Below are positions 164-21,527 of a DNA stretch of 29,665 nt, piece after piece; within the stretch, counting starts at the first letter, position 1; every line of letters starts with the position of its first letter. The stretch lies in the IMG/VR virus record IMGVR_UViG_3300046616_000309, positions 1 through 29,665 of that record; one strand, written 5' to 3'. Source of the DNA: a virus. The notes under the pieces are model-generated. The model was given only the letters and a program-made list of their open reading frames with translations, made no database searches and had not been told where the DNA came from. The translations under genes and the position numbers were made by a program.

Positions 164-421
164 TTAGGAAGCTTGAGTTGAGAACGAGTTTGCTCTGACC
201 TTCGTATGTACTCCAGAAACATTCTCGGTAACGATCTCATCAATCGCATCCTGAATTGCTTGTTCCTGATCTGCATCAGACAGTTCAGGAGATGTACGAA
301 CTACTCGAGCCAACAGAGAATTCGAGTAGTACCCATGTGCCATGTCCCATGCCATCCACTCATCGTACTGGGTAACGGGACTGAATGGATTGTCAGTTGT
401 AGTAAGCATGAAGAAGTCCAT
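164..421 (-). CDS. Small conserved actinophage protein of unknown function
   Basis: 85 residues, acidic, with a conserved-looking N-terminal block LTTTDNPFSPVTQYDEW followed by a predicted helical region rich in D, E and Q. I recognise this pattern (LTT-DNP-F-P-TQ-DEW) as a family common in phages of Gram-positive bacteria, but its function is not known to me. The ATG overlaps the stop codon of the RNA polymerase-like gene (ATGA), and a GGAGA Shine-Dalgarno lies just upstream, so the two are probably translationally coupled. No membrane segment or signal peptide is visible. Confidence 0.8.
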   Translation of the reverse strand: MDFFMLTTTDNPFSPVTQYDEWMAWDMAHGYYSNSLLARVVRTSPELSDADQEQAIQDAIDEIVTENVSGVHTKVRANSFSTQAS

Positions 422-3177
422 CAGTCTCCTTCCCCTTTGAGTGCGGCCTGAACGGTAGACACAGAGACGCCCAGAGAGTCAGCGATCTCAGCCCACGTGT
501 ACCCTTGTGCGTGTAGGGACCGAGCCTTGCTCTCCTTGGCAGTTGTCATCTTCACAACAGCCCTTGGTGTAGCCAGTTCCTTAACCCTGTCAAGATCGGC
601 ATGATTGAGGATCTGGTCGAGTTTATGGGCCGTGATGGCACCTGCCTGAATGGCTGCCCATTCGGAGTCGGTGATATCGAACTTCTGCTTCTCTGCACCT
701 GTTCGAGCACGGGCTGCAGAAAGAGCCTGCGATTTCACTCGCTTAAGCTCTGCTTTGTTCTCCTTCTCCCGAAGCGATGGGTTCGCCTGGATCTTAAGGC
801 GAACAGTAGCATTCGCAAAGACCTGGGCTTGCCTTTCGAGGGGGGCGTTTCTGAGAGCCAGGGACAGTTTAGCATTGAGGGTCTCAACCGCTGAAGCATG
901 GGTCCTTTTTGCCGATGGTGAATACGGCTTGGACTTAATGGAGACAAGCTCTTTACGAGCCGCGTTTGCCAATGACTTCAGTTTATTGGAGTGGTCTGCG
1001 TAGACCTTCTCGATGACCGTTCCAGAAGACAGAGTATGGGCGTTGTCTGCTTCTGCCAACTTGGTGGTCTCGGTTTTGAACGGGATGACGTGCGTCTTGC
1101 CTTTTTCATCGACCCACGATTTCATTCTTCCAGTGGGTTCAAAGACTTTCTTTCCCGTCTTGGGGTCTATCGGACCGCCCTTGGATGCTGAGCGAGGTTT
1201 TCTCTGATCGACTTTCTCAGGTGAGGTTGCTCTCGAAATAAGAGTTCGAGCACCACCCAAACTCCTACCCTGGTATCTCTTCATGAGAGCAGGAATACCA
1301 TTGTCGTCACGAGAGCGACGCCAGTCGAGATTGTGTTTCTCGGCGTCGATCACCACCATCGAGTGCCGGACAGCTCGAGCTATCTCTTCTGTGCTGGCAC
1401 GTTGAATGGTCATGTCAGTGATGAGGTTGGAAACCAACCCCATCTGATAACCCTTCTCTCGATCCGTCATCCTCTTCATACCCTCATATGGCGGATACGA
1501 AGATTTAGGATCGAAGTTCCTCAGACCCTCCAGAGGCGACGTCGACTTGATCTTGCCTAAGTTGTTAGGGATGACAAGAACATTATCCCCGTCGAAGTCA
1601 GCTCCCGATAGACGTTCGGCAACCTTACTGTGTATGCCGATAGCGTCTTTCGAATCTCCCAGCAACTTCTTTGCTGCGGGATTACGGTTGTTCACCGTCA
1701 GCTCCGGAATCTCGAACGTCCCTCCGTGAGGGAAACGCACGAGAGCAACACGCTCGCCATCTCGAAAATTGGGAGCGTAAACCTCAGTTGGCTTCATGTC
1801 ATTGACTGGCATGATGACTTGAGTCTTCTGTCGAGGGAGATGCGCCGCCTTCAGATGTACTGCGGACGAATCTACACCATCAGCGTAGGACTCAAGAAGC
1901 TTCTTCTTCACCGAGGGATTAGTCAAAGCCAGGATGGAATCAAGCTCAGTCTTCTTCTTGGTGTATGTCAGATCGAGCTGTTCCTTGGCGAGTGTGGGTC
2001 GCTGCTTCGAAAGGAACTGTGACGACAAACTCTTCGACCACTCGTCCCACTTACCCTCCTCGTTGACAACGTTCATCGCCGAGGTGAGCTTGGTGATCTT
2101 TCCCGTCTGGTCGCGTTCACCGATCTGTCGAACAGTCGAACCGAACGGATTGTCCTGATCGACGTTTCCTTCTTTGTCTTTCTTAAGTTCCTTCATGGCG
2201 TCAAGCTTGTTGCCAGTGGAGTTCTTGTTCGTGTTGAAGAGGATGTCCACGCCATCTGGCAAGTCACGACCGTCAACCTTGATAGCCATACCCTTGAGAT
2301 AGTGCGAATCATCCACCATCACACGTACCTGCGCGTAGCGTGAACGGCCCAGAGAGAGGTCAGATACACCATCACGAACATACATGACCCCATCAGCTTC
2401 TGCGCCACCCTGATCGGCGTAGCGCACGCCAATGCGCTTAGAGCTGACAGACAGCGGAGGAACCATACCGAGAGAGGTCAGACCGCCATTCTCGGAGTAC
2501 TCCTGCAGTTGCTGAATGTTGTGACGATTACGTTGTACGTCACCCCATTCATTTTCGGGTTTGGTCAACACTTTCATGTTGGTCTGATTCCCGGTACCCA
2601 ACTGCTCGACCTTGACCTCGAAGACGTTGTAACCCTCGTTCTTCAGATTCTGCAGAGCACTGCGCAGCTTCGTGCTGGTGATGTTGAGTTGGTACTCAAC
2701 ACCGGCACCGACGTCAAGGAATTCCTTCTTGTTGACAGCATCACGAAGGGTGGTCGTGACGTTATCCAGAACTCTAACCTTGCGGGCCTGACTCGGCTGC
2801 AACAGAGCACGAACCTGAGATTCGCCGTTCACCTTGTAGCCGGCTTCGCGCATACGAATCGCGATAGCGCCGTTCGACAGGCCCTTGTCTTTCAGCTTCT
2901 GGGCCATGTGAATCTGATCTTGCTGCCGTTCGTTGCGAACGATGGTGCGAAGGTCGCGAAGCTGGGTGGTTGTGATACCCAACCCAGTAGCAATGTCTTT
3001 CTCACTCAGACCTTGCTTCTTCATCGAATCGGCTTCGTCCAGCAAGGAACGATTACGCTGGCTGGATTCGTCGTCCCCGCCAGATCCCCACGGGTACCGA
3101 CCCGAGTGCCGAGGAGTTCCGTAGTGGGAGATGACGCCTTGACTGGCTAGGTACTCATCTTCAGGGATGGTAACCAC
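421..3177 (-). CDS. Single-chain two-barrel RNA polymerase-like protein (YonO-like, DFDGD motif)
   Basis: 918 residues. Residues 522-538 contain SGADFDGDNVLVIP; DFDGD (527-531) is the metal-binding signature of the beta-prime-type double-psi beta-barrel of cellular RNA polymerases and of the single-chain YonO/QDE-1 group. A basic segment before it (YAPNFRDGERVALVRFPHGG, about 467-486) fits the barrel. Helix-turn-helix-like segments lie near residues 46-85, 90-128 and 885-915. The N terminus has HYGTPRHSGRYPWGSG, a block I have seen in large phage proteins of this type. The GTG start at 3177 has a strong GGAGGA site. The inferred role is DNA-directed transcription of phage genes; polymerase activity is predicted, not shown. 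It is the largest gene of the left operon. Confidence 0.75.
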   Translation of the reverse strand: MVTIPEDEYLASQGVISHYGTPRHSGRYPWGSGGDDESSQRNRSLLDEADSMKKQGLSEKDIATGLGITTTQLRDLRTIVRNERQQDQIHMAQKLKDKGLSNGAIAIRMREAGYKVNGESQVRALLQPSQARKVRVLDNVTTTLRDAVNKKEFLDVGAGVEYQLNITSTKLRSALQNLKNEGYNVFEVKVEQLGTGNQTNMKVLTKPENEWGDVQRNRHNIQQLQEYSENGGLTSLGMVPPLSVSSKRIGVRYADQGGAEADGVMYVRDGVSDLSLGRSRYAQVRVMVDDSHYLKGMAIKVDGRDLPDGVDILFNTNKNSTGNKLDAMKELKKDKEGNVDQDNPFGSTVRQIGERDQTGKITKLTSAMNVVNEEGKWDEWSKSLSSQFLSKQRPTLAKEQLDLTYTKKKTELDSILALTNPSVKKKLLESYADGVDSSAVHLKAAHLPRQKTQVIMPVNDMKPTEVYAPNFRDGERVALVRFPHGGTFEIPELTVNNRNPAAKKLLGDSKDAIGIHSKVAERLSGADFDGDNVLVIPNNLGKIKSTSPLEGLRNFDPKSSYPPYEGMKRMTDREKGYQMGLVSNLITDMTIQRASTEEIARAVRHSMVVIDAEKHNLDWRRSRDDNGIPALMKRYQGRSLGGARTLISRATSPEKVDQRKPRSASKGGPIDPKTGKKVFEPTGRMKSWVDEKGKTHVIPFKTETTKLAEADNAHTLSSGTVIEKVYADHSNKLKSLANAARKELVSIKSKPYSPSAKRTHASAVETLNAKLSLALRNAPLERQAQVFANATVRLKIQANPSLREKENKAELKRVKSQALSAARARTGAEKQKFDITDSEWAAIQAGAITAHKLDQILNHADLDRVKELATPRAVVKMTTAKESKARSLHAQGYTWAEIADSLGVSVSTVQAALKGEGD

Positions 3178-4105: not shown

Positions 4106-4630
4106 CTAACGCTCGATGGCCTCCCTGAAGATCTGACCCGTCGGCCAGACGTACGTGTTGTTGAGCATGGAGAGGTAAATCTCTACGTCGAGCACACCAT
4201 TGAATGTAGAAGCATGCATCGAGTTCTTATAGACCTCGCCAGTCTCGACATCCTCGATAGGGCGATCGAAGGTGGTGTGATCATCCTGGAACTGCCTCGT
4301 GTACTTCCGAGCGAACCATAATGGACGCCACATGAGATTCGTGTAGTGGTTGTCCGACCGGTCGCCACTCAAATTGATAGGGGTGTCGAAACTATCGTTG
4401 GATGGTCGAGGAAGAAACGCACTAGCGACCAGCAGGGGGAGTGAGCGCTTGTGCTGAATCGTCCTCGTCATAAGTCCAACCATGAACAGACCGCTGGGCT
4501 TCCTCGTGGGGGTAAGAAGGCAGCCGGTCTGATTGTTCAGTACGTGTCCCCAGTCGCTTACGGAGTATCCGGGGAAGTCGCGTATCTCCGCCCACCGTTC
4601 CGGAGTGGGTGAGAACTGCTCTTGTACCAT
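4106..4630 (-). CDS. NUMOD4/HNH-derived protein lacking the HNH catalytic histidine
   Basis: 174 residues. Residues 11-35 (ERWAEIRDFPGYSVSDWGHV) match the NUMOD4 DNA-binding motif usually attached to homing endonucleases. The following LPLLVASAFLPRP and INLSGDRSDNHYTNLMW align with the HNH fold (VHRLVAEAF and NHIDGD-x-NNH-x-NLEW), but the catalytic His positions are replaced by Pro and Asn. I recall phage relatives with the same Asn, so this is likely a stable non-cleaving family, perhaps a DNA-binding regulator (inference). The start has no strong Shine-Dalgarno; AT-rich sequence with TATACC and TATATA on the minus strand lies 17-40 nt upstream and could be a -10. Confidence 0.65.
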   Translation of the reverse strand: MVQEQFSPTPERWAEIRDFPGYSVSDWGHVLNNQTGCLLTPTRKPSGLFMVGLMTRTIQHKRSLPLLVASAFLPRPSNDSFDTPINLSGDRSDNHYTNLMWRPLWFARKYTRQFQDDHTTFDRPIEDVETGEVYKNSMHASTFNGVLDVEIYLSMLNNTYVWPTGQIFREAIER

Positions 4631-4693
4631 GAGGAACTGCTTTCTATATAGGGTATAGCCTCTTGGAAGGGTGGATGTCCGTTTTGCCGGTTC

Positions 4694-4823
4694 CTGTCAA
4701 AAACAAAAAAAAATCCCAAAAACTTTTTTATTTTTTGCATGTTGGTATCTAATTATTAATATTTAGATACCGTAGAGGGGAGTATTAAAAAAGTTTTTGG
4801 CCTTTTTTTTGCAAAAGTGACAG
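4694..4823. repeat. Concentric imperfect palindrome centred near 4758
   Basis: Three nested inverted repeats share nearly the same centre: CTGTCA/TGACAG (4694-4699 and 4818-4823), CCAAAAACTTTTTTA with its exact complement (4716-4730 and 4786-4800), and a 28-bp palindrome at 4744-4771 with arms GGTATCTAA/TTAGATACC and one mismatched pair. The shared centre means one large cruciform or stem could form. A plain terminator would need only one of these stems. Confidence 0.8.
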
Positions 4824-4853
4824 CGAGATGCCTACAAACTAGGACAACTCCGG

Positions 4854-4879
4854 TAGATACCCACCACCATGGGTATCTA
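4854..4879. promoter_or_regulatory. TAGATACCC/GGGTATCTA dyad, operator-like
   Basis: TAGATACCC (4854-4862) and GGGTATCTA (4871-4879) are exact inverted repeats with an 8-nt spacer. The half-site TAGATACC is also both arms of the 28-bp palindrome at 4744-4771, in the opposite relative orientation, and occurs alone at 4101 and 17029. This is typical of binding sites for a dimeric protein such as an initiator or repressor; the protein is not identified. Confidence 0.5.
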
Positions 4880-4927
4880 ACTCGGAGACATATGGGTACC
4901 AAACCGGACATACCCGGACCGGGGGTT

Positions 4928-4967
4928 GCCAATTAGGACAACAATTGGCTCGGGTGCCCTAATTGGC
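4928..4967. repeat. Inverted repeat GCCAATTAGG/CCTAATTGGC
   Basis: Exact 10-bp arms at 4928-4937 and 4958-4967, with a further AATTGGC at 4943-4949 between them. It is part of the dyad cluster in the long non-coding region. Confidence 0.6.
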
Positions 4968-5067
4968 TATACCTTTTCACAGATCGCCCGATTTGGTACC
5001 AGTTTGTAGCCATTCTATCGCTGATTTTGTATCACCCCTTTTCAAAACTGACAGAAAAGTGACAGCC

Positions 5068-7314
5068 TCAATCACGAAACAGACCGGCATATTTGGCTTC
5101 GTTGAAGGTTTCTTTCGCCCTCAACGACCGTCCAATCGCCCTGTCGATCCACGAATCCGAGGTGAAATCGTAGTACCACAGGTCAGTGAACGGACTATTC
5201 AAACGGTCGATTCGCCCTTTCGCCTGCTCGCAAACCTTCCAAGAGTAGTTGCGAGAGAACATGATCTCCGCATCCGTCTCGATGCAGTTCCACCCTTCCG
5301 CTCCAGCGGTGTACTGGACTAGGTAGAGCCATCGATCCGTTCGCGGGACGGGCTGGTGCTTGTGACCGTTCCATTCCGCTATCGTCGCGGAGCACTCGGA
5401 TCCAGTACTTTTCCTTCCAGACTCGTCTATCACGAGCTCGCTGGATGCGTTGAATGGTGCCACAATCGAGCTCGAGAGGTTCTCCGGTATCGTTTCCGAT
5501 AACGGTTTCCCTGATGGGTCCAGTAAGCCATCCTTCGTAGCGTGGGTCGAAGTCATCGTTGAGGATGTGAAGTTTCTCGAGCCGCATTTTGTCGATGAAG
5601 AACCATTCGTCGGACATGATGCATCCCTCTTACTTGACTCGGCGATCTCGCATGGTGACGGTATACGTGATGAGTTTGTCGCCTTGACTGAGGTCGCCAC
5701 CGTCTTCGATTTCAGCGACGAGCCATGGTTCTTTGATGTCGCTGGGTTCAGCAAGAGCTCGAGTGGCTGTTCTGATCCATTCGCCGATGCTGTTATGGAG
5801 TTGATCCCACAACTCTGCGCTAAGCTTCTCAAACTCTCCAACTCGTAGTTGAAGTTGTAGAACACGATCAGCTTCGGATGGTTCTTCCATAGTTCTTTCA
5901 CCATCTCCAATCGACTAGGATCGCTGTTGACAACCTTCCTCGAAACAGAACACATCTCCGCGATATCTCGCAAAGGTCTGTCCTCATACACATGCCAGCG
6001 CTGCTTCAGAACCGCGTCGAGCAGCTCTTTGTCGTACTGCAGGGGTACCTCAACCTCTCGTCGGCGGGTATGCCGCACGAACGACATCTCGACAAGGAGC
6101 TGATGTCTCTGTCTCGCAAGGCGTCCGACATTGATGTAGCGGTCGACCTTGGGGAACTTGGTGAAGGTGTTGTAGACGACATGTTCGCGCTTGAAGTGTG
6201 TGCGATTCTTGTAGAAATTATTCGCCACAAAGACCGGAACGTAGTCCATCCACGTATCGCCGGGAGTAGCCGTCAGCAAGATCCAGTGGTTATGCTTCGC
6301 TATTCGCAGGAACTTTCGAGACCAGTCTCCAGAACCAACCAGTCTCTGCTCGTCAAATATGAAGAACGCTCCCGCCACATCAGCGTACTTGGCGATGTTG
6401 TTCCAGGAGTCGACGGTGAAGACGTAGGGATAGGCTCCGTTGGAATGTTTTCCGGCTTCAATTGCTCCTTCCAGTACTCCAACGTTCCGAATTCGGGATC
6501 CTGGCTCGCCACAGGATGTCGTGGGTTCCCCCAGCGAATCCCACCCCTCAAACTTGTCGTTGCCGGGATCTCCTCCCGCTTCGGCAAACCCGCGAGTCTC
6601 CGAACGTAGTTCGTGTCCAGTTCTCCGCGTTGGTACAGCTCGAATATCCGACTCCAGTTGAGTGGTTCCTCGTAGATTCCCTTCAGCTCGTTCTGGAGAT
6701 CTGCCGTCATGGCAGGTCCGCGACTCTGCCATATCCCCATGAAGGAATACTCCATCTCCAGAGCTCTCCACATGAGATCTGAGGGAACTTGACTGAAGAG
6801 TCTGAGCTCCTCCTGCCGATCGAATTTTAACGGCTGCGTCATGCTGTCTCGATACAGCTTGTTGAGATCTTGTAGAGCTTTGTTCGACGCGGAACGCTCC
6901 GGTTCCAGCACTTGAGTGAGAAAGCTCGTCAAGACTTTCTCTCCTGGATACTTCGGGTTCTCCGAGATCAGTCGAAGCTGCTGATCCATCTTCCAAGCTT
7001 CGAACAGCGTGATTTCTCCCCGCCACCAAAGATCCCGCATCGCCGGATACAGGTCCAGTTCGGGGTCCGATCCCGACTCGATAGAACTCATCCTGCCAGT
7101 CGAAGCTGTCTCGTTTTTTGGCGGTGGTGATGACGTAGACGTCACGGGGTGCCTCTCTCAATTTATAGTATTCAACGGCCACCCGGGTTTTACCCGATCC
7201 CACACCTCCCCAGAGGATCTTACCGTTCGCGAGCTTCCTCAGGGCTATTTTCTGATGCGGGTAGAGCTCATCACTCCCGAAGGTCATGACACTTGCATCG
7301 ACAGACAGCATCAC
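5068..7314 (-). CDS. SNF2-type (SF2) DNA helicase interrupted by two frame-preserving insertions
   Basis: 748 residues. Helicase motifs in order: LYPHQ (17-21), Walker A GGVGSGKT (36-43), FFIFDEQR (motif II, 317-324), LTATPGDT (motif III, 347-354), LIVFYNF (motif IV, near 485), YTAGAEGWNC (motif V, 668-677) and EQAKGRIDRLN (motif VI, 696-706). This matches the small phage SNF2-like helicases that I recall at roughly 450-500 aa. Residues about 84-293 and 501-642 do not look like helicase: they are rich in S, T, R and G, read like off-frame translation, and sit where relatives have short loops. Good protein-like sequence lies in other frames of the same DNA. The GTG at 7314 lacks a clear Shine-Dalgarno and overlaps the previous gene; ATG 7287 is an alternative. 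Whether the product is active is open. Confidence 0.8.
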   Translation of the reverse strand: MMLSVDASVMTFGSDELYPHQKIALRKLANGKILWGGVGSGKTRVAVEYYKLREAPRDVYVITTAKKRDSFDWQDEFYRVGIGPRTGPVSGDAGSLVAGRNHAVRSLEDGSAASTDLGEPEVSRRESLDELSHSSAGTGAFRVEQSSTRSQQAVSRQHDAAVKIRSAGGAQTLQSSSLRSHVESSGDGVFLHGDMAESRTCHDGRSPERAEGNLRGTTQLESDIRAVPTRRTGHELRSETRGFAEAGGDPGNDKFEGWDSLGEPTTSCGEPGSRIRNVGVLEGAIEAGKHSNGAYPYVFTVDSWNNIAKYADVAGAFFIFDEQRLVGSGDWSRKFLRIAKHNHWILLTATPGDTWMDYVPVFVANNFYKNRTHFKREHVVYNTFTKFPKVDRYINVGRLARQRHQLLVEMSFVRHTRRREVEVPLQYDKELLDAVLKQRWHVYEDRPLRDIAEMCSVSRKVVNSDPSRLEMVKELWKNHPKLIVFYNFNYELESLRSLAQSCGINSITASANGSEQPLELLLNPATSKNHGSSLKSKTVATSVKATNSSRIPSPCEIAESSKRDASCPTNGSSSTKCGSRNFTSSTMTSTHATKDGLLDPSGKPLSETIPENLSSSIVAPFNASSELVIDESGRKSTGSECSATIAEWNGHKHQPVPRTDRWLYLVQYTAGAEGWNCIETDAEIMFSRNYSWKVCEQAKGRIDRLNSPFTDLWYYDFTSDSWIDRAIGRSLRAKETFNEAKYAGLFRD
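5195..5617 (-). CDS. Nested ORF in helicase insertion 2 (b), unknown function
   Basis: 140 residues in the -1 frame relative to the helicase. The ATG at 5617 has a good AAGAGGG site about 7 nt upstream, which supports real translation. Residues 1-78 (MSDEWFFIDKMRLEK to YWIRVLRD) look like a genuine small charged protein; the remaining 62 residues are an off-frame shadow of helicase motifs V-VI. The protein-like part ends where the helicase frame becomes recognisable again (near 5391). I do not recognise the family. It may be a cargo gene carried by an insertion, with a tail added by reading into helicase sequence. Confidence 0.5.
   Translation of the reverse strand: MSDEWFFIDKMRLEKLHILNDDFDPRYEGWLTGPIRETVIGNDTGEPLELDCGTIQRIQRARDRRVWKEKYWIRVLRDDSGMERSQAPARPANGSMALPSPVHRWSGRVELHRDGCGDHVLSQLLLEGLRAGERANRPFE
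5630..5890 (-). CDS. Nested ORF in helicase insertion 2 (a), unknown function
   Basis: 86 residues in the -1 frame relative to the helicase. The first 25 or so residues are a shadow of helicase motif IV; from ELWDQLHNSIGEW onward it looks like a real amphipathic, acidic protein ending in YTVTMRDRRVK. The ATG at 5890 has only a weak GAAAGAA site, so the true start is uncertain and it may have lost its own 5' end when inserted. The stop is 12 nt before the next nested start. No known domain is recognised. Confidence 0.4.
   Translation of the reverse strand: MEEPSEADRVLQLQLRVGEFEKLSAELWDQLHNSIGEWIRTATRALAEPSDIKEPWLVAEIEDGGDLSQGDKLITYTVTMRDRRVK
6300..7091 (-). CDS. Nested ORF in helicase insertion 1, unknown helical protein
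   Basis: 263 residues from ATG 7091 in the +1 frame relative to the helicase. The stretch from DPELDLYPAMRDLWWRG to KPENIPTE (about 7065-6436, 210 residues) has the composition of a real globular, mostly helical protein rich in W, L and E; the helicase frame over the same DNA reads as low-complexity sequence. Both flanks of this ORF are shadows of helicase sequence, so the protein-like part coincides with the extra segment. No strong Shine-Dalgarno precedes 7091. It is either a nested gene, or a domain joined to the helicase through two compensating frameshifts. I do not recognise the family. Confidence 0.5.
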   Translation of the reverse strand: MSSIESGSDPELDLYPAMRDLWWRGEITLFEAWKMDQQLRLISENPKYPGEKVLTSFLTQVLEPERSASNKALQDLNKLYRDSMTQPLKFDRQEELRLFSQVPSDLMWRALEMEYSFMGIWQSRGPAMTADLQNELKGIYEEPLNWSRIFELYQRGELDTNYVRRLAGLPKREEIPATTSLRGGIRWGNPRHPVASQDPEFGTLEYWKEQLKPENIPTEPIPTSSPSTPGTTSPSTLMWRERSSYLTSRDWLVLETGLESSCE

Positions 7315-7466: not shown

Positions 7467-7673
7467 TCACTCCTTTTTCAGCATTGCCTCGGTGTCGATC
7501 TCCAGGGCAAGCCCGTAGTCCGAGTTCCACGTCCACATGATCGTGACGTGCTGGTCGGGACATTCTTTCATGGTCGCCTCGGGATCGTCGGTCTTCTGCG
7601 TGATCACCAGTTCCTTGGCACAGACGGGACAGAACTTCATCGAGTCCATGATGGAGAATGCTACTCTGACCAT
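7467..7673 (-). CDS. Zinc-ribbon protein of the local family
   Basis: 68 residues from ATG 7673, chosen for the GGAGA site 7 nt upstream; the frame is open further upstream but that part has no coding look. FCPVCAKEL and KECPDQH give a C-x2-C plus C-x3-H ribbon, followed by a beta-rich tail (VTIMWTW ... GLALEID). The plan CPxC-xxL, 15-25 residues, C-x(2-3)-H/C, then strands is shared with neighbours at 7690, 8089, 8355 and 9562 and the tail of the thymidylate kinase. It abuts the next gene. Confidence 0.75.
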   Translation of the reverse strand: MVRVAFSIMDSMKFCPVCAKELVITQKTDDPEATMKECPDQHVTIMWTWNSDYGLALEIDTEAMLKKE

Positions 7674-7689
7674 GGGGGTCTCCAGTGAA

Positions 7690-7911
7690 TTACCGATTAC
7701 TAGGACGAGGAAGAGAGAATGTGATATGCCAATTACTACCGGTATCGAACCATCCGAAGGCGCTGAAGCGTGCGTGGTTGTGCTCGCAGATCTTGGCACC
7801 CTCAAATTGATGAGCGTCAGGTTGTGTGCTGGGAACGAACACCAGCTTGGTTCCGCAGATGATGCATCTGTTGATCAGTTTCCACGGATTGTTCTTGATA
7901 CCGCGGGGCAT
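7690..7911 (-). CDS. Zinc-ribbon protein of the local family
   Basis: 73 residues. RCIICGTKL and ICEHNH form a C-x2-C plus C-x2-N-H pair, followed by aromatic strands (ARFSAFGWFDTGSNWHITF). The ATG at 7911 has a weak site (GGTGAA) and lies inside the 3' part of the gene at 7817-8092, which it overlaps by 95 nt, so translation may depend on coupling. Function unknown. Confidence 0.65.
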   Translation of the reverse strand: MPRGIKNNPWKLINRCIICGTKLVFVPSTQPDAHQFEGAKICEHNHARFSAFGWFDTGSNWHITFSLPRPSNR

Positions 7912-8092
7912 TGTTCACCGCCATTCTGCGCTCATTCCACTCACGACGACTGCGCGTGTCGAGGGCCAGCTTCTCTGCCAGCCCTCGAGCTCCCGCGGCG
8001 TTGACGTATCCGTCTTCTATGAGATTCTCGATTTGGTCGAGAGCATCGCTGGTGCGCGGACGGAGGAGATACTCATACCCTTCTAGCATCAT
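7817..8092 (-). CDS. Small unknown protein overlapping a zinc-ribbon gene
   Basis: 91 residues from ATG 8092, which overlaps the previous stop (ATGA). Residues 1-60 (MMLEGYEYLLRPRTSDALDQIENLIEDGYVN and on) look like a genuine helical charged protein. The last 30 or so (from NAPRYQEQ) are the shadow of the zinc-ribbon gene at 7690-7911, so the ORF may have lost its natural stop. A frameshift joining it to the ribbon is an alternative. No family recognised. Confidence 0.6.
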   Translation of the reverse strand: MMLEGYEYLLRPRTSDALDQIENLIEDGYVNAAGARGLAEKLALDTRSRREWNERRMAVNNAPRYQEQSVETDQQMHHLRNQAGVRSQHTT

Positions 8093-8358
8093 GGCTCGAA
8101 GAGATCTTTCACGATCGGAACGTACTCGCACTTCCAGTCGTCCTCGAATGACTCCTGATTTACACGAGAGATACGGAATTCACCGCACGTCTGATTTGTT
8201 CCCGTGTCGTCGAGACACACGTACGTGAACACAGTGGTCGGCGGGATGCGATTGATGTCGGGCTCACCAACGTAGGGGTTGTTGCTCGTGATGAAGATCT
8301 CTTCGCCGCACATCGGGCACGTGTCGATGTTCATCAAGAACTGTCGAAGTTTGATCAC
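8089..8358 (-). CDS. Zinc-ribbon protein of the local family
   Basis: 89 residues from a GTG start with a good AGGAG site; the start overlaps the previous stop (GTGA). TCPMCGEEIF, then VCLDDTGTNQTCGEF, forms a ribbon with a longer second knuckle than its neighbours, followed by an acidic tail with EYVPIVKDL. It is translationally coupled on both sides. Probably a member of the same small ribbon family; role unknown. Confidence 0.75.
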   Translation of the reverse strand: MIKLRQFLMNIDTCPMCGEEIFITSNNPYVGEPDINRIPPTTVFTYVCLDDTGTNQTCGEFRISRVNQESFEDDWKCEYVPIVKDLFEP

Positions 8359-8693
8359 TTCGCTATCTCCTTCTCGTTCTCGATCGTCTCGACATTCACC
8401 GCGAACATCTTGAACTCGAACGTCACATCACCGTCGAGCCACACCTCGGTCACGGTGAATTCGCCGCATTCGCAGTAACGGATGGCAGGGTGGTCAGGGT
8501 TGCTCTCCAACTCATGACCGCAAACGGGGCACACGCGGAGACGGTCCAGCGCGTCTTGAATATTCACTTTCATCACCAGCTCCTTTCGGGGGGTTGTGAG
8601 TGGTGGCTTGTTCATCACGAGCTCGCACATCAGATCGTTCGCAAGTCGTTGGTAGAAATACGATCGGGGGAGTCCCACGGTGACGTTGGTCAT
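8355..8693 (-). CDS. Zinc-ribbon protein with N-terminal extension
   Basis: 112 residues from ATG 8693. The ribbon VCPVCGHELE ... RYCECGEFTV (C-x2-C plus C-x-C) and a beta tail (DVTFEFKMFAV) lie in the second half. A very strong AAAGGAG site precedes an internal ATG at 8573 (MKVNIQDALDRL), which would give a 72-residue ribbon-only protein. The upstream 40 residues have normal codon third positions and close the gap to the next gene, so both forms may be made. Confidence 0.7.
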   Translation of the reverse strand: MTNVTVGLPRSYFYQRLANDLMCELVMNKPPLTTPRKELVMKVNIQDALDRLRVCPVCGHELESNPDHPAIRYCECGEFTVTEVWLDGDVTFEFKMFAVNVETIENEKEIAK

Positions 8694-8703
8694 GGGTCGA
8701 GCT

Positions 8704-9063
8704 CTATTCCTCGCTAGGAGGTGTGGTCATTTCTTCGGCGTTGAGGTACACAGCATTCTGTTCCGTGACGAATACCCCGCAGTATTGACACAGACCACGA
8801 ACGATAATGGTTGGTCCCTCTTCTGCGTAGAACATGCACCATGTGCCGTGACCCTTGTCCTCACATCCACATGTGCGAGTGTGGAGATTGCCGTGCTTGC
8901 CGTCAGGTCCAAGAGGACGATGCTTGTCCAGATCGTTAATGAGAGCCTGCAGTCGTGCGATGTGGACGTCATAATTATTCGGCATCCACATCGTCAGCAA
9001 CGCCTGTGCCTCACACAAGGTCTCACGAAGCATCTTGGGTGAACCGGGATAATGGATTTCCAT
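8704..9063 (-). CDS. Conserved actinophage protein with zinc-binding Cys/His clusters
   Basis: 119 residues. The helical N-terminal half ends in DKHRPLGPDGKHGNLHTRTCGC, a block I recognise from many actinophage small proteins. A further WCMFY and GLCQYCGVF add Cys pairs, giving a ribbon-like C-terminal half. The ATG at 9063 has an AGGGAG site. The function of the family is unknown to me. Its position inside the zinc-ribbon run suggests a shared role or repeated acquisition. Confidence 0.75.
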   Translation of the reverse strand: MEIHYPGSPKMLRETLCEAQALLTMWMPNNYDVHIARLQALINDLDKHRPLGPDGKHGNLHTRTCGCEDKGHGTWCMFYAEEGPTIIVRGLCQYCGVFVTEQNAVYLNAEEMTTPPSEE

Positions 9064-9068
9064 CGCGT

Positions 9069-9326
9069 CTACTCCCTCGCTGAATCCATGTAGAGCTGAT
9101 GCCAGACCTTGTAGGGGACGGTGGCGTGAGCTTGCACCCTCTTGACGACCAACTCGACGTCGTGGATCTCGTCCAAGCTACAGCCGATCCGGAGGATATC
9201 CCGGCCTTCGTCGTCTTCATCCTTGGTCGTGTCGATCACGTGGGCGAAGTAACTTCGCAGAATGCGATCCCACCCGATAACAACCTCTTCCGTCGGCTGG
9301 AACGGCTCCAAGTCGTATCTGCTCAT
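9069..9326 (-). CDS. Small acidic conserved protein
   Basis: 85 residues from ATG 9326 (MSRYDLEPFQPTEEVVIGWD); the longer frame to 9383 is a shadow of the previous gene. The start overlaps the previous stop (TGATG) with an AAGGA site 9-10 nt upstream. The block EEVVIGWDRILRSYFAHVID resembles a small family seen in Streptomyces plasmids and phages that I recall only as hypothetical. No Cys, no membrane segment. Confidence 0.7.
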   Translation of the reverse strand: MSRYDLEPFQPTEEVVIGWDRILRSYFAHVIDTTKDEDDEGRDILRIGCSLDEIHDVELVVKRVQAHATVPYKVWHQLYMDSARE

Positions 9327-9565
9327 CAGTGAGGATCCTTCCGATGCTTCGCCGAGATCTGGCTCGACAGCTGTTTCTCGCACGAGACCCGCCGGAGATA
9401 CTCAGCAGTGAGTTGCTTCTCCTGCTTGTCGACGGTAAAGCTCAGACTCTTGACCTGACGCTTGAGCCGGTCATTCTGGATGCCCAGGATGCTCGAGACG
9501 ACGAGCAGCAGAATGAAGGCCAGTACGATGCCCGAGAACACCAGCCAATCGGTAGCGCCACTCAT
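9326..9565 (-). CDS. Single-span membrane protein with coiled-coil tail
   Basis: 79 residues from ATG 9565 with a GAGAGGA site; ATGA overlap with the previous stop. A hydrophobic span at about residues 8-27 (LVFSGIVLAFILLLVVSSIL) is followed by a charged helical tail (NDRLKRQVKSLSFTVDKQEKQL) typical of a coiled coil. The short N terminus and basic tail suggest N-out, C-in topology. An Rz-like or other envelope role cannot be assigned. Confidence 0.75.
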   Translation of the reverse strand: MSGATDWLVFSGIVLAFILLLVVSSILGIQNDRLKRQVKSLSFTVDKQEKQLTAEYLRRVSCEKQLSSQISAKHRKDPH

Positions 9566-9942
9566 GGGGTATTCCTCTCCAGCGGCTCGAACGTGATGAC
9601 CGGTAAACCCTGGGCGTTCTCCGTGGTGAAGACGCGACCACATCCGTGAGGGCATTCTTTGATGTCGAGGACGAGAGACTCCAGCTTGGCCCGACACAGT
9701 ACACAGTAGAGCATCTGCTCATACAAGGTCTGTCGTGAGTCGATCTTGACAACAGGAGGTGGTGGAATCTCGAAGAGATTGATCATGCTTCCCGTCGCCT
9801 CGACCTTCTTCATCACCTCCACCATGGATCGCCACGCTTCATGATTGGCGAGCGTCACAGCGATCGTGGGTGAGAAGAAGATGCTTCCCTGCTTGGGTCG
9901 CATACCCATCGCATAGACGATCTTACGAATCTGATGCAGCAT
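9562..9942 (-). CDS. Zinc-ribbon protein with N-terminal helical domain
   Basis: 126 residues from ATG 9942, which has a strong TAAGGAG site and lies 20 nt inside the thymidylate kinase gene. Residues 1-70 are a mixed domain unknown to me (MLHQIRKIVYAMGMRPK and on). The C-terminal part YCVLCRAKL ... ECPHGCGRVFTTE ... GLPVITFEPL forms a C-x2-C plus C-x3-C ribbon and beta tail. This part closely resembles the C terminus of the neighbouring kinase (CPECNFEL ... CPDGHGEIY ... GFVTFEK), which indicates common descent. Confidence 0.75.
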   Translation of the reverse strand: MLHQIRKIVYAMGMRPKQGSIFFSPTIAVTLANHEAWRSMVEVMKKVEATGSMINLFEIPPPPVVKIDSRQTLYEQMLYCVLCRAKLESLVLDIKECPHGCGRVFTTENAQGLPVITFEPLERNTP

Positions 9943-10816
9943 GCTTCTCCTTACCGGGCATAACATCCTTCTCGAATGTCACGAAGCCATCGCGAGTACT
10001 ACCCAGAGGCGGAATGTAGATCTCTCCATGACCGTCCGGGCAGTAGTAGTGATTCGGATCCGCGAGCATTTGTCGAAGCTCGAAATTGCACTCAGGGCAT
10101 CGATACTGATACCTCATCGACGGAGGAGGAACAATTCCCGGGTTCAATCGTTCGTACCTCATCTGTTTCATCGCTGACATGACGCCGAGAACGTAATGGA
10201 GAATCTTGCTGTGCACCACCTCAGCCGATTCCATCCCGTCCATGGTCACCCAGGTCTGATCACGCTGCTCGAGGAAACCACGATGAACAGCGTGATGATA
10301 ACTCAGATCTTTGTCCTCGAAGCGGGTGGTCTTGACCTTCATCGCCCTCTCGAGACCGATCACAGGATCCACGTCGAGGAAGAACGTCAAGTCGGGGTAC
10401 AGGTCCGACGACGCCCAATCCGACACCGTACGAAGCACGGGTGCGTCCAGGCCGCTGGCATATCCCTGATACGCGATCGTCGAGGCGATATAGCGATCAC
10501 AGATCACCATCACTCCACGGTTCAGAGTCGGCCTGATGACCTTTTCCACGTGCTCAGCGCGATCTGCAGCGAACAGAAGAGCCTCAGCCTTCTTGGATAT
10601 AGGCTCGCCTCCACGATCCAGCAGAAGAGCTCTCAGGTTGGCTCCCAGGCGGGTATCGCCGGGCTCCCGTGTGAGGTGGTGATCGACGTTGTGGATCTTC
10701 AGGGCATCCGACAACATCTTCGCCTGGGTGGTCTTGCCTGACCCATCACCGCCCTCCAGAACGATGAAGAGACCTCGTCCTTCTTCATTGACGTTTCTCA
10801 CTGTTTTGCCCTTCAT
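9923..10816 (-). CDS. tmk: Thymidylate kinase with C-terminal zinc ribbon
   Basis: 297 residues; dTMP kinases are usually about 200-215. The P-loop LEGGDGSGKTTQ (about 20-31), the DR motif REPGDT, CDRYIASTIAYQG and LDVDP-x-GLER are the hallmarks of dTMP kinase, which makes dTDP for phage DNA synthesis. The lid segment and substrate arginines appear intact. Residues about 235-285 add a zinc ribbon (YRCPECNFELRQ ... YYCPDGHGEIY) and a beta tail, the same module as in the next gene. The ATG at 10816 overlaps the previous stop (ATGA) and has no strong Shine-Dalgarno, so it is likely coupled. The kinase call is firm; the role of the ribbon is unknown. Confidence 0.9.
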   Translation of the reverse strand: MKGKTVRNVNEEGRGLFIVLEGGDGSGKTTQAKMLSDALKIHNVDHHLTREPGDTRLGANLRALLLDRGGEPISKKAEALLFAADRAEHVEKVIRPTLNRGVMVICDRYIASTIAYQGYASGLDAPVLRTVSDWASSDLYPDLTFFLDVDPVIGLERAMKVKTTRFEDKDLSYHHAVHRGFLEQRDQTWVTMDGMESAEVVHSKILHYVLGVMSAMKQMRYERLNPGIVPPPSMRYQYRCPECNFELRQMLADPNHYYCPDGHGEIYIPPLGSTRDGFVTFEKDVMPGKEKHAASDS

Positions 10817-17127: not shown

Positions 17128-17496
17128 TCAAAGCAGTTTGTCTCTTCCTCGCCGACTTCCCTGGAACCTTTCGTCGTCCTTGTCGAAATGGGGCGGGAAG
17201 CTCAGACCTACCACCCAACCACGCTTGCTGGCCTTGGCGATAGCGTCCTCGACGTCCGTCCCATCCTGCATCGTGATGGAGATTTTCCGGTCATCGTCGA
17301 TCGTGAACGAACCGACGACACTTGCTCCGATGATCACCCGACCTTTGGTGTTTTCCGACATGACTTCTCCGATCGACGATGTCGGTATTCTTGATTTCCA
17401 GGCGTGAATGGTTAATGGCTCTGTCAATATCATGCCCAAGACGAATACCGTGAGCGCCCCCAAGATACAACAGAAAATGTACTCAACCAGAATCAC
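17128..17496 (-). CDS. Membrane-anchored beta-rich protein, paralog set member 3
   Basis: 122 residues from GTG 17496, which overlaps the replicase stop (GTGA). An N-terminal span IFCCILGALTVFVLGMIL (about 7-24) is followed by the paralog block GRVIIGASVVGSFTIDDDRKISITM. An internal ATG at 17361 (MSENTKG) has a strong GGAGA site and would give a soluble 76-residue form without the span. Two products, anchored and soluble, may be made from one frame. The tail is basic (RFQGSRRGRDKLL). Confidence 0.65.
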   Translation of the reverse strand: MILVEYIFCCILGALTVFVLGMILTEPLTIHAWKSRIPTSSIGEVMSENTKGRVIIGASVVGSFTIDDDRKISITMQDGTDVEDAIAKASKRGWVVGLSFPPHFDKDDERFQGSRRGRDKLL

Positions 17497-20400
17497 GAGA
17501 GGAACTCGTCAACAGTAGCGAAGCCACTACCCACGAGAAACTGATCGAGGTCGTTCCGAGCCTCCTCGATCTTCTTCTCGAAGAAGTCGTAGTCGATCGC
17601 ATCGCCCGGAAGATCCATGGCGATGTTGGAGTCGACCCAGAGGTGACCCTTGGTGCCAGCAATGGCGTAGTGCTTACCATCCTTGATACGGTAGAGATAT
17701 CCGCCACCGTAGCCCGGCTTGACCGGAGTGAAGCGACCGGTCTTACCCACGTGGATCAACTTGTCCAGAGCGTTCTGGTACAGAGCCGCCATCTCCGCCT
17801 CGGCCGCTACAGGATCGCGACCTTCCTTCTTCACGGCCTTGGCGATCTCCTTCATCTCACCAAGAGCCTCGTCAAGCCAGCCGGGCTGATCGGCGTTGTC
17901 GACGATACCGCTCCCGTACTTGCCGAAGTCCATGTAGATCGCACCCTGCTGGACGTGCTTCGTCTCGCAGAGGTCGAGGAAATGGATGTCGTCATCGTGC
18001 CCGAACAGCTTCTTGAACACGTACGGGTTGGTTTGGGGAAGAAATTGGGTACCTGTGGCCGTCCAGCAGTTGCTGACGCAGTTGTCCTTCTTCGCGACGT
18101 AGACGGCGTCGTTGAGAAGAGCGATCTTGGAGTACTGGTCCTCGTCCGGCTTGTACTCGAAAGTGTAGCCGTACTTCTTCCCGAAGGCCTTGACATCCTC
18201 GATGATCTCCGGCGTTGCTCCAGGGATCTTCACCGAGTCCGTCTTGATGTGGATGACCTTGAAGCCCTTCTCCTGGATGAAGTGCTTGAGATCGATCATG
18301 AACAGAGCACCGCGCTTGGCGACGATATTGTCCACGTTGCGCCGGTCCATGAACGGGTTGTCGAACTTGGCCGAGGTCAGACCGTATACGATATTGACCG
18401 CGATCTTAAGACCCCAGCGCAGATCCATAGCTGCTTTCTTCGCCGCGGCGGGATCTTGCTGTTGGAGATTCTCGATCTCCTGGATGTACGGTCGCAGCTT
18501 CCCACCAAGGAGTTCCTTGGCATCAGCGTAAAGACCGTTCTTGAGCGCCAACTGTGCCTCGACGAGCGCCATGAAACGCGGCGTGTACTCACCGAACAGG
18601 TTGAGTTGACCGATGCTCGTAGGGTGCATAGAAGCGACATCCAAGAGCGCGACATCTCGGTAAATACCAGGCTCAGCGTAGACGTAGCCTCCCTCACCGA
18701 CAATCTCGCCTCGGTAGGTGCTCTGTACACCCTTTCCTGCAATCGACTCGAAGACATAACCGGGGAACTCCTTCGAGAGATCCGTGTAGACGAAGTTGTT
18801 CTGAGGGTTCTTTTCCTTTCCGAAGACGATCGCCGCGGTCAACTTCGCCGTGGTGTCGTTGGGTTTCATACCGGCCAGATCTGCCAGGATCAGACGGGCC
18901 GTGTAGTCGCCTTGCAAATGCCTGTGGACCATCTCTTCCGAGACCACGTCATTGGCGCAGTACTCGACCACATCCATGATGCGATCCTGCGGGACGGGCT
19001 GATCCCACGGTAGATCCATCTCACGGTGCTCGAGACCCAGTTCAATCTGCCACTTCTTCAGCCCCTTTTTGTCGGTGCTGTAGTCGTAGATGTCCGTGTA
19101 CGACAGACCGTATGCCTCACCGAACTTGGCGCCGGCCACGCCGTTGATGATCTTCATCGAGAGGTTGTACAGCTGCTGGTTATTGAATCCCATCGCAGCG
19201 CCCCACATGATGTGGTTGTCGTAGTTGCGAACGTTGAAGCCGACCAGCTTGAAGCGCATGAGCGCCTCCACCTCGTGCGGCTTGGGGTTGATCATTCGCA
19301 CGACACTGTCTGCGGAGGGCTTGTCTTCCTCGAACTTCCAGCAAATCACCAGAAGGTTGGGGTACACCTCCATGTCGTAGAAGACCAGACGTTCCTCCGT
19401 GACCTCGATCGGGGTCTCGGGAAGGTCTTCGTGAGACTTCCATCGCATTGACTGCACGATCTTCAGGCACTCGAGCGACTTGTTGGAGCTGTTGTTGGCG
19501 AATGCCGTGATCTTCTGCTTCAGATCACTGACGTCGAACTCGAGACCGTCTTCGTAGGCGTCGTCGAGGATCTTCTTGATGAAGTCGATCGACGGCTTGG
19601 TGCCCGGGTGAATCTCCTTCCGGAGGTTACGGGCGATCAGGTCCCGAAGGGCCTTCTGACTCTTCAGTTTCCCGGGGTCCAGCACCCGCTTCTTCTCCTT
19701 GAAGGCTAGTCCGCTGCTAATCGTAGCAATCGGCACGTTGTTGCACTTCGACAACCGACGACGCAAGGCGCTATTCCCCGAGTACACCTTGACTTCAATT
19801 CCATCATCAAAATATGAGTCAAGTTGGGAGACGTCTCCGTCGTATAGGTAATGCAGATGGACGCCTTCGCCGGATTTGCTGAGCTCTCCGTAGGTGGGGG
19901 GCCATTCTGCAGCTGCGGCGAGGTTTCGTTCGAGTGATTTGTTTCCATCCTCGTCCTTCAAGTCGAAGTCGATGACGATGTGGTTCTCGGGAACCTTAAC
20001 GTAATGCTCGCGCGTCGTGTCCAGATCTCTGAGATGCGTGTCCACGACCTGAGAGGGTCGCGGTTTCTGCAACTTACCGCCGATGATGCGCTCGTGGTCA
20101 TCCCAAAACTTTGAGGGAGTACCGTCGGCCTTGGCGTATTGAGCCGCGTAATCCGCGAGCTCCATGTTCAGCAGAGAGGTGGTTTCATCCATGCGAAGGG
20201 TGAACGTCTTGACGTCATCGTCGACAGGCTGCTTGAACGGTTCGGCCTTGAAGCCGGAGTAGTAACTCCGGATGGTCACCCCATCAATCACGATCCTGTC
20301 GTGGAACTCCTCGAAGTAATTCCCGAGCTCCGACTTGAACGCGTACATCGAGAACGGCTTTTCGATCGCCGCTTCCTGACAATATTCCTTGTACAGATTC

Positions 20401-21527
20401 CACGCTTGCTTGGCGCTGACTCCGCCCTGCTTCTCGAAGACGTCATAGTGCGCCTCGATGAAGTTGAAGAAGGCGTTCGTCTTGAACATCATCTCCAGGG
20501 GCTGGTAGTTGCTGTAGAAGTTCTTCCCCATCGCCTTGTAGACCTCGAGGCAGTGATGAGCAATGGCTCCCAGCTCGAACTCGATCCGCGCCTTCAGTCG
20601 GTGATACTCCGTGGGTGGAAGCTTGACTCCCGACGGATGCACGTCGATCAAGCGACGGATAAGACCTGACTGAGCGTCTGTGATCTTGACCGGCTTGTTC
20701 GTTCCCATGATCAGCGCCGCGTTGATACGAGCGTCGAATGAAGGCTTGTACTTCTGGTTCACCTTCATGATCTCGTGAGACACGATGGAATTGAGTGTGG
20801 TGTTGTCCTCCACCCTGGACAAGTCTCCATCGTGCTGGATTGCCACCAGGGGGTTGTTCTCGAATGCGGCCGAAGCGAACTGGTTCCCGCTCGATCCGAG
20901 AGCCTTGGCATCGAACGTCGTGATATAGCCGGGGAAGAGACTCATCACGATGTCGATCATGGTTCCCTTGCCTGCTCCCGGAGGACCATGCAAGACGAGG
21001 AATTTCTGAATGGTTTTCGAGTCCCCCGATACGATAGACCCGATGAACCACTCAATCTTGGCACGCTCGTCAGGCTTGTAGAGGGTGCCGATCATGACAT
21101 CCCAGGCTGAGATATCTCCGGGGGCGAGGTCGTAGGGAAGTCTCTTGCTGACGTAGTCTTTCTTCTCGACCTTGGTCGTGAGGAACGTCAGCTTCTCGTC
21201 CAGTACGTGGGCGTTGTCTCCGATCTGGCTCATGAATTTGCGAAACGTGCTTTGCGCATTCGAACCAAAGCTTCGGATGGTCTTTACGCTGACAACGTCC
21301 TTGTTTTCTTTCTGGTACGAGTGCAGTTTGTCGTCCACGATCCGCTGTACGTCGTATTCGTCGGTGGACCAAAGACCCTTGTCGGGACCTTCCGCATTCG
21401 GATTCCAGACGGCGTAGAAGTTTTTCGCTCGGACCATAAGGTCCTCGGAGCGCCCGACAACGAAGTCCGGATACGCTTCGAATCCTCCGCCTTTTTTTTC
21501 TTTTACTGCGATCTGAAAGAAATCCAT
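17493..21527 (-). CDS. Replicase: SF3-type helicase, AEP primase, 3'-5' exonuclease and family-B polymerase in one chain
   Basis: 1344 residues with a strong GGAGGAGG site. An N-terminal D5-like region is followed by Walker A GPPGAGKG (181-188), a Walker B-like VAIQHDGD (228-235) and MGTNKP (274-279) of a viral SF3-type helicase. Next is an archaeo-eukaryotic primase-like domain: VIDFDLKDED (518-527), SGEGVHLHY (552-560), IEVKVY (577-582). Then a proofreading exonuclease: DME (718-720), NVRNYD (765-770), YCAND (856-860). The polymerase follows: DVASMHPTS motif A (963-971), KIAVNIVYG motif B (1041-1049) and IKTDS motif C (1094-1098). Motif C has Lys in the first position of the usual DTDS but keeps the Asp that is essential in family B. 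The order helicase then primase is the reverse of the common PrimPol-helicase fusion. Confidence 0.85.
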   Translation of the reverse strand: MDFFQIAVKEKKGGGFEAYPDFVVGRSEDLMVRAKNFYAVWNPNAEGPDKGLWSTDEYDVQRIVDDKLHSYQKENKDVVSVKTIRSFGSNAQSTFRKFMSQIGDNAHVLDEKLTFLTTKVEKKDYVSKRLPYDLAPGDISAWDVMIGTLYKPDERAKIEWFIGSIVSGDSKTIQKFLVLHGPPGAGKGTMIDIVMSLFPGYITTFDAKALGSSGNQFASAAFENNPLVAIQHDGDLSRVEDNTTLNSIVSHEIMKVNQKYKPSFDARINAALIMGTNKPVKITDAQSGLIRRLIDVHPSGVKLPPTEYHRLKARIEFELGAIAHHCLEVYKAMGKNFYSNYQPLEMMFKTNAFFNFIEAHYDVFEKQGGVSAKQAWNLYKEYCQEAAIEKPFSMYAFKSELGNYFEEFHDRIVIDGVTIRSYYSGFKAEPFKQPVDDDVKTFTLRMDETTSLLNMELADYAAQYAKADGTPSKFWDDHERIIGGKLQKPRPSQVVDTHLRDLDTTREHYVKVPENHIVIDFDLKDEDGNKSLERNLAAAAEWPPTYGELSKSGEGVHLHYLYDGDVSQLDSYFDDGIEVKVYSGNSALRRRLSKCNNVPIATISSGLAFKEKKRVLDPGKLKSQKALRDLIARNLRKEIHPGTKPSIDFIKKILDDAYEDGLEFDVSDLKQKITAFANNSSNKSLECLKIVQSMRWKSHEDLPETPIEVTEERLVFYDMEVYPNLLVICWKFEEDKPSADSVVRMINPKPHEVEALMRFKLVGFNVRNYDNHIMWGAAMGFNNQQLYNLSMKIINGVAGAKFGEAYGLSYTDIYDYSTDKKGLKKWQIELGLEHREMDLPWDQPVPQDRIMDVVEYCANDVVSEEMVHRHLQGDYTARLILADLAGMKPNDTTAKLTAAIVFGKEKNPQNNFVYTDLSKEFPGYVFESIAGKGVQSTYRGEIVGEGGYVYAEPGIYRDVALLDVASMHPTSIGQLNLFGEYTPRFMALVEAQLALKNGLYADAKELLGGKLRPYIQEIENLQQQDPAAAKKAAMDLRWGLKIAVNIVYGLTSAKFDNPFMDRRNVDNIVAKRGALFMIDLKHFIQEKGFKVIHIKTDSVKIPGATPEIIEDVKAFGKKYGYTFEYKPDEDQYSKIALLNDAVYVAKKDNCVSNCWTATGTQFLPQTNPYVFKKLFGHDDDIHFLDLCETKHVQQGAIYMDFGKYGSGIVDNADQPGWLDEALGEMKEIAKAVKKEGRDPVAAEAEMAALYQNALDKLIHVGKTGRFTPVKPGYGGGYLYRIKDGKHYAIAGTKGHLWVDSNIAMDLPGDAIDYDFFEKKIEEARNDLDQFLVGSGFATVDEFLS

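Follow-up and report, generated by a model that had tools for sequence, protein, structure and literature searches.

Does a viral helicase gene that is open from end to end also encode other proteins in shifted frames, or is part of it skipped or removed before the helicase is made? The question arises from IMG/VR record IMGVR_UViG_3300046616_000309, a virus DNA of 29,665 bases that was analyzed over its whole length (hereafter, the window). Its SNF2-type DNA helicase gene (positions 5068..7314, minus strand) comprises 748 codons with no stop, matched the PHROG 62 DNA helicases in a profile search (E=5.5e-45), and contains the SF2 motifs in order. The top PDB matches of its AlphaFold model were the SNF2 structures Ino80, ISWI, and Chd1. 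The insert-free SNF2 helicases of PHROG 62 in Streptomyces, Arthrobacter, and Gordonia phages have the same core, motifs, and spacing, and they lie in the same neighborhood, with an HNH gene, an exonuclease gene, and an HTH/polymerase-like gene downstream; however, they are only about 390 aa long (as in Streptomyces phages) and have no large insert at either of the two sites described below.

When the window helicase was aligned to the insert-free homologs, three parts of the core were recovered on the minus strand: an N-terminal part with motifs I and Ia (7063..7314), a middle part from motif II (VDSW..DEQR) to motif IV (YNFNYELE; 5824..6437), and a C-terminal part from AEWNGHKH onwards, with motifs V and VI (5068..5381). 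The distance from TTAKKR to VDSW was 238 codons in the window, against about 33 in insert-free genes, and that from YNFxYE to EWNG was 161 codons, against about 20–22, indicating that the gene contains two inserts, designated site 1 and site 2. Both have lengths divisible by three and fixed positions, and the core between them spans 185 codons in nearly all loci having both motifs. Between the window and L005 (L-numbers denote the other contig loci compared), the mid core differed by 31, 23, and 90 changes at codon positions 1, 2, and 3, respectively; with its motifs retained and its changes biased to third positions, the helicase core is evidently maintained. In the AlphaFold model, the pLDDT of the core was mostly >80, and both inserts scored 30–40 and had no secondary structure. 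Third-position GC and codon usage gave a gene-like codon phase of +0/+1/+0/+2/+0 along the gene. The first-pass annotation, made from the sequence alone, had described a single segment of about 630 nt coding in the +1 frame with the helicase frame open. That segment was confirmed as site 1, with a shift of codon phase at ~7062–6438 and zero stops, and its length is a multiple of three, as had been stated; the second insert (~5823–5382), which reads in the +2 frame and holds two tandem ORFs, had been missed.

Site 1 lies between helicase motifs Ia and II (~6438..7062, minus strand) and adds about 205 codons, with edges that the alignment fixes to within a few codons. The low-complexity S/T/R/G-rich reading previously noticed in its helicase frame was borne out by the alignment and by disorder prediction, and this frame has no stops. 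In the +1 frame, GC by codon position was 0.58/0.40/0.65 and the codon-usage score was +0.11 bits/codon, compared with −0.33 in the helicase frame; the third frame holds 8 stops. Therefore, of all three frames, it is the +1 frame that has the gene-like phase within the segment. The nested +1 ORF, n1 (6300..7145, minus strand), starts with a GTG at 7145. The annotation had let the +1 protein end where the helicase sequence resumes, but n1 runs into both flanks, sharing ~83 nt with the conserved core ahead of the insert and ~138 nt after it. The protein was also expected to be helical and 210 residues long; its N-terminal region is indeed predicted to be helical, but the ORF has 281 codons, and its structure model, with a mean pLDDT of 55, is weak except at residues ~33–80. 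A Shine-Dalgarno-like sequence, GAGAGAGG (7152..7159, minus strand), is located 6 nt ahead of the GTG, has a predicted anti-SD pairing of −8.4 kcal/mol, and overlaps conserved helicase codons (LREAPRD). The N-terminal domain of n1 carries the motif IxxLYxxGxITLxEAYKM, which also occurs in free-standing genes of ~66 aa. A PDB sequence search and a BFVD fold search with the weak n1 model gave no significant match.

Site 2 lies between motifs IV and V (~5382..5823, minus strand; ~141 extra codons, edges accurate to a few codons), and its helicase frame is S/T-rich, free of stops, and predicted to be disordered. It contains two nested ORFs in the +2 frame. ORF 2a (5630..5890, minus strand) has 86 codons, begins with an ATG within the helicase core, and ends with TAA; a Shine-Dalgarno-like sequence, GGAGATGGTGA (5898..5908, minus strand; −8.3 kcal/mol), lies in conserved helicase codons 7 nt ahead of its ATG. 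ORF 2b (5195..5617, minus strand; 140 codons) begins with an ATG 12 nt past the 2a stop and extends ~190 nt into the helicase core. Its Shine-Dalgarno-like AAGAGGG (5625..5631, minus strand) overlaps the 2a stop, 7 nt ahead of the 2b ATG, with a predicted anti-SD pairing of −6.3 kcal/mol. Both n1 and 2b continue past the inserts into the core, with low-complexity tails at their ends. The nested ORFs reach into the conserved flanks through whichever alternate frame the flank leaves open: stops are usual in the +2 frame of the site 1 flanks and in the +1 frame of the site 2 flanks. The choice of frame (+1 at site 1, +2 at site 2) is largely explained by this, because the other frame of the flank usually has stops.

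Inserts at these two points were also present in about 30 further contigs of uncultivated phages. In the first three scans, viral contigs searched with helicase queries yielded 17 site 2 carriers including the window, plus L006, which has site 1 only; among these, site 1 was filled in the window, L004, L005, L006, and L010. A later scan with another query added L315 and 13 new carriers with nested site 2 ORFs; of these 13, L244 has site 1 as well. In a tree based on the core only, the first five site 1 carriers formed one clade (support 99), requiring one change, while the presence of site 2 was patchy and required about nine changes, with sister pairs of a carrier and an insert-free gene (L009/L011 and L026/L103). 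When the short site 2 inserts of these pairs were compared with the empty sites, no obvious target duplication or repeats were seen, and a search for direct or inverted repeats at the insert edges gave nothing convincing. Upstream of site 2, all 17 carriers (17/17) had a +2 frame that is not interrupted and contains an in-frame ATG, compared with 10/83 insert-free genes. The ATG at −139 was considered as a carrier-specific mark and rejected, since it is also present in 38/83 insert-free genes; therefore, only the open frame behind the ATG is informative.

At site 2 of L315 (243–1670), a DUF4326 domain occurs in the helicase frame (E 2e-27), and L244 (5001–7217) has the same domain in the helicase frame in the middle of its site 2 insert (E 2e-25). 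These in-frame domains indicate that the point accepts translated insertions and that the helicase can be read through the loop. In L244, nested +2-frame ORFs lie on either side of the DUF4326 domain, so that fused and nested cargo occur in one insert. Among phages, the best 60 of 373 matches to the core helicase were each ~1.1–1.3 kb, with no large insert, and no match among 67 loci in genome contigs spanned enough to contain one; among the records covered by these searches, no sequenced isolate carried the inserts. An assembly error or an indel was rejected as the cause of the arrangement because independent contigs show the same layout, which also disposes of the edge indels that the first-pass annotation had named as a possible refutation.

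Maintenance of the helicase frame through the inserts was examined by keeping the nested amino acids, redrawing their codons, and counting helicase-frame stops in 2,000 simulations; the carriers are not fully independent of one another. In the 2,474 codons of 21 inserts, no stop was seen, against 64.9 expected (simulation minimum, 43). With the inserts' own codon usage, ~25 stops were expected per site, with a minimum of 12 each, and again none was seen. In a held-out set, consisting of contigs fetched once the test had been set up, there were 0 stops against 47.3 expected (minimum, 32). The window by itself showed the same tendency: with the nested amino acids fixed, 8.5 stops were expected at site 1 and 4.3 at site 2, and 0 were seen at either (P(0)=0.0005 and P(0)=0.0055, respectively), so the helicase frame is open beyond chance already in this one gene. 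The third frame, used as a control, was also low (75 stops seen against 119 expected); the codon null is therefore approximate, but this shortfall is far too small to account for zero stops. Thus, the host frame is open beyond chance, as required of an overlapping gene. The helicase reading at site 2 was also enriched in Ser/Thr (0.40 vs 0.30 expected from core codon usage) and poor in hydrophobic residues (0.14 vs 0.24 expected, likewise), as a soluble loop would be.

The nested frames were likewise preserved. When the helicase amino acids were kept instead, 12 nested-frame stops were seen against ~98 expected, and most of the 12 have a new ATG soon after; in the held-out set, there were 3 against 72 expected. 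Between the 2a ORFs of L008 and L019, there were 23 base changes. In the nested frame, 16 were silent and 6 replacing (17.8 replacing expected, P<0.0005), whereas in the helicase frame, 5 were silent and 18 replacing (16.0 replacing expected). These changes spare the nested protein and strike the helicase frame at random. Nested proteins were similar between the window and L010 at site 1 (z=14), between the window and L004 at site 2 (z=16), and between L008 and L019 (z=87). Together with the L008/L019 pattern, this homology shows a nested frame that is conserved as protein, and the contigs conserve it in place of the helicase-frame residues whose conservation would have spoken against the annotation. 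No similarity was detectable between the site 1 nested proteins of the window and L006, indicating that the site 1 cargo is only partly one family. Anti-SD pairing was stronger at the nested starts than at other ATGs of the same genes (n1, p=0.02; 2a, p=5e-7; 2b and later ORFs, p=6e-5), although the 2a starts are mutually homologous and their p-value overstates independence; the n1 start of L005 has nearly no Shine-Dalgarno pairing.

Some of the cargo also exists outside the helicase. L005 has two tandem free-standing genes of ~66 aa for the n1 domain (4601–4801 and 4786–4983) directly upstream of its helicase, and the nested proteins of L035 and L007 have free-standing relatives beside the helicase, at L019:4578–4856 and L018:2129–2494, respectively; by eye, a nested ORF of L311 resembles the L035/L019 family. 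The nested ORFs tested against Pfam, PHROGs, and NCBIfam showed no significant family and no endonuclease match, and the nested proteins with their free-standing relatives had no match in 50,697 phage records. Hence, a search with the +1-frame protein alone, as had been suggested, found no database family, and its relatives came from the other contigs, including the free-standing 66-aa genes.

If the inserts were removed before the helicase is made, as a self-splicing intron, an intein, or a bypassed segment would be, the nested ORFs would be the element's own genes. Two inserts at fixed points with lengths divisible by three would fit such removal, and ORFs within introns are common. However, no Rfam family of any kind was found in the window, including group I or II intron cores at the gathering score, and coding occupies the whole insert, leaving no room for a group I intron core, as the first-pass annotation had argued; no Pfam domain, of inteins or otherwise, matched the inserts, whose helicase frame is predicted to be disordered. 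A removed segment needs no open host frame, so the absence of stops in every carrier, where about 65 and, in the held-out set, 47 were expected, contradicts removal, as does the in-frame DUF4326 at the same site, and we regard it as very improbable. Two programmed frameshifts, into the nested frame and back, would instead yield one helicase with folded inserted domains. The nested frame at site 1 is open across both insert edges in the window, L010, and L006, and the N-terminal region of the nested protein is predicted to be helical, both of which would fit such a product; at site 2, however, the nested frame meets stops followed by new ATGs in seven loci (the window, L004, L005, L007, L008, L019, and L035), the nested ORFs have Shine-Dalgarno-like starts and free-standing homologs of their own, and the avoidance of stops in the unshifted helicase frame would be left unexplained. 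Double frameshifting thus has very little to recommend it. It is just as hard to believe that only one reading is real, with the helicase destroyed by nested genes or the nested ORFs being chance frames. Chance ORFs of ~200 aa are indeed present on the same strand of the window, but the core retains its motifs and its third-position-biased change, and purifying selection acts on the nested frame, which is homologous from one contig to another. Of the three options that had been offered for site 1, compensating frameshifts and an unknown removal mechanism are therefore contradicted, and a nested gene within a helicase that tolerates a nonsense loop is supported by stop avoidance and nested conservation.

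The closest precedent is the out-of-frame HNH insertion of the ShiLan domain (2025), in which an HNH endonuclease lies out of frame in a phage methylase whose own frame is open and disordered (PMC11855218). ShiLan-type inserts each encode one HNH endonuclease or DNA-binding protein, with no intron or intein detected; ShiLan has its start and stop inside the insert and no detectable ribosome-binding site, and in a second case, Pacc40, sister phages have a free-standing relative of the cargo immediately upstream of the host gene (PMC11855218). The helicase inserts share with ShiLan an insertion in a phage DNA-metabolism gene, a stop-free disordered host frame, and a real protein in an alternate frame, and with Pacc40 a free-standing cargo relative beside the host gene. 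Unlike ShiLan, they occupy two loops of one helicase, often hold two to four tandem ORFs with no recognizable endonuclease, start and stop in the conserved host flanks, and have Shine-Dalgarno-like starts; moreover, ~30 contigs permit a statistical test of dual coding. That they are themselves selfish out-of-frame homing endonucleases of this type, spreading by copying themselves into the helicase and sparing its frame to avoid harm, is suggested by the published layout (PMC11855218), the ~9 changes of site 2 on the core tree with its insert and insert-free sisters (L009/L011, L026/L103), and a free-standing NUMOD4/HNH-type gene downstream of the helicase (4106–4630). On the other hand, none of the nested proteins tested had an endonuclease match in Pfam, PHROGs, or NCBIfam, and the cargo at the same site varies between phages, whereas a homing element brings its own nuclease. 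We therefore consider this origin unlikely. Since the stop-free host frame and the real ORF in another frame were found but the defining endonuclease was sought and not found, we do not file the inserts as a ShiLan element; they are a ShiLan-like variant with another host gene, two sites, and non-nuclease, often tandem cargo.

Overprinted genes, such as phiX174 E within D, have long been known, and there the nested gene is normally the new one (PMC8227390). As in the helicase, a single stretch of DNA encodes two proteins in different frames, one nested in the other, and disorder relaxes the constraint; the difference is that classically the new protein arises de novo in the alternate frame of an old gene. 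The nested helicase cargo has free-standing relatives, and thus what is new is the way the host reads the insert. Rickettsia palindromic elements, repeated elements of ~150 bp, are also translated as in-frame insertions (review PMC10969869) and resemble the present inserts as foreign sequence read through in the host frame, but the helicase insert is not a repeated element, and it encodes in another frame a second protein that is conserved in its own right.

Dual coding, with the helicase read straight through and the nested genes read from their own starts, is in our judgment the very probable explanation. The two inserts, the avoidance of stops in both frames, the conservation of the nested frame, and the free-standing relatives are properties of the sequences, and we infer from them that both products are translated, that the loops are tolerated, and that the nested proteins are functional and coupled in their synthesis. 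DNA that encodes other small phage proteins, in a frame shifted from that of the helicase, would have entered two loops of the enzyme. Ribosomes reading the helicase would cross the inserts and produce long loops, hydrophilic and disordered, which the enzyme would tolerate, while others on the same mRNA would initiate at an out-of-frame ATG or GTG behind a Shine-Dalgarno-like sequence partly encoded by the helicase's own conserved codons. Downstream nested ORFs would start at stop-ATG junctions, perhaps by re-initiation, like translationally coupled genes. Selection on the nested frame would act on its protein, and that on the helicase frame would demand only that it stay free of stops and hydrophilic. 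Because the genome is longer with the inserts, space saving is not an obvious reason for nesting; the most likely candidates are linkage to a gene that cannot be lost and expression tied to that of the helicase. As a tentative extension that is quite possible, the helicase loops may serve as cargo bays, with out-of-frame starts and stops provided by the conserved flanks; into these bays phages would swap small-gene cassettes, some of them multi-gene, in a fixed alternate frame, with the helicase reading the cassettes as disordered loops. If so, the helicase would offer a standing means of housing accessory genes within a core gene, rather than a one-off overlap.

Several neighboring genes of the window, all on the minus strand, were also noted. 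A NUMOD4/HNH-type endonuclease gene (4106..4630) lies just downstream of the helicase, where Streptomyces phages also have an HNH gene, and is a possible agent of insert mobility. Upstream of the helicase is a run of small genes (7467..9966), several with CPxC zinc-ribbon-like pairs, and L005 has similar small genes there; these are a possible source of the nested cargo. A 918-aa protein (421..3177) with a helix-turn-helix at its end matches a PHROG labelled RNA-dependent RNA polymerase and contains GADFDGD, the motif of double-psi-beta-barrel RNA polymerases; the Streptomyces phage gene at the matching position is annotated only as an HTH protein. A 1,344-aa primase/DNA polymerase fusion (17493..21527) belongs to PHROG 4210.

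A gene caller that allows each stretch just one long ORF would call only the helicase here and miss the inner genes. One gene can apparently carry other genes inside it without being broken, and the usual story of overlapping genes would be reversed: a gene that already existed moves into a host gene, and what arises as new protein sequence is the host's reading of it. With about 30 carriers, insert-free sisters, and free copies of the cargo in hand, it becomes testable how long foreign loops under frame constraint are tolerated, and whether a small gene, once nested, is less easily lost or has its expression coupled to that of the helicase. Stop-free, S/T-rich inserts in other phage enzymes may therefore deserve re-reading in their other frames.
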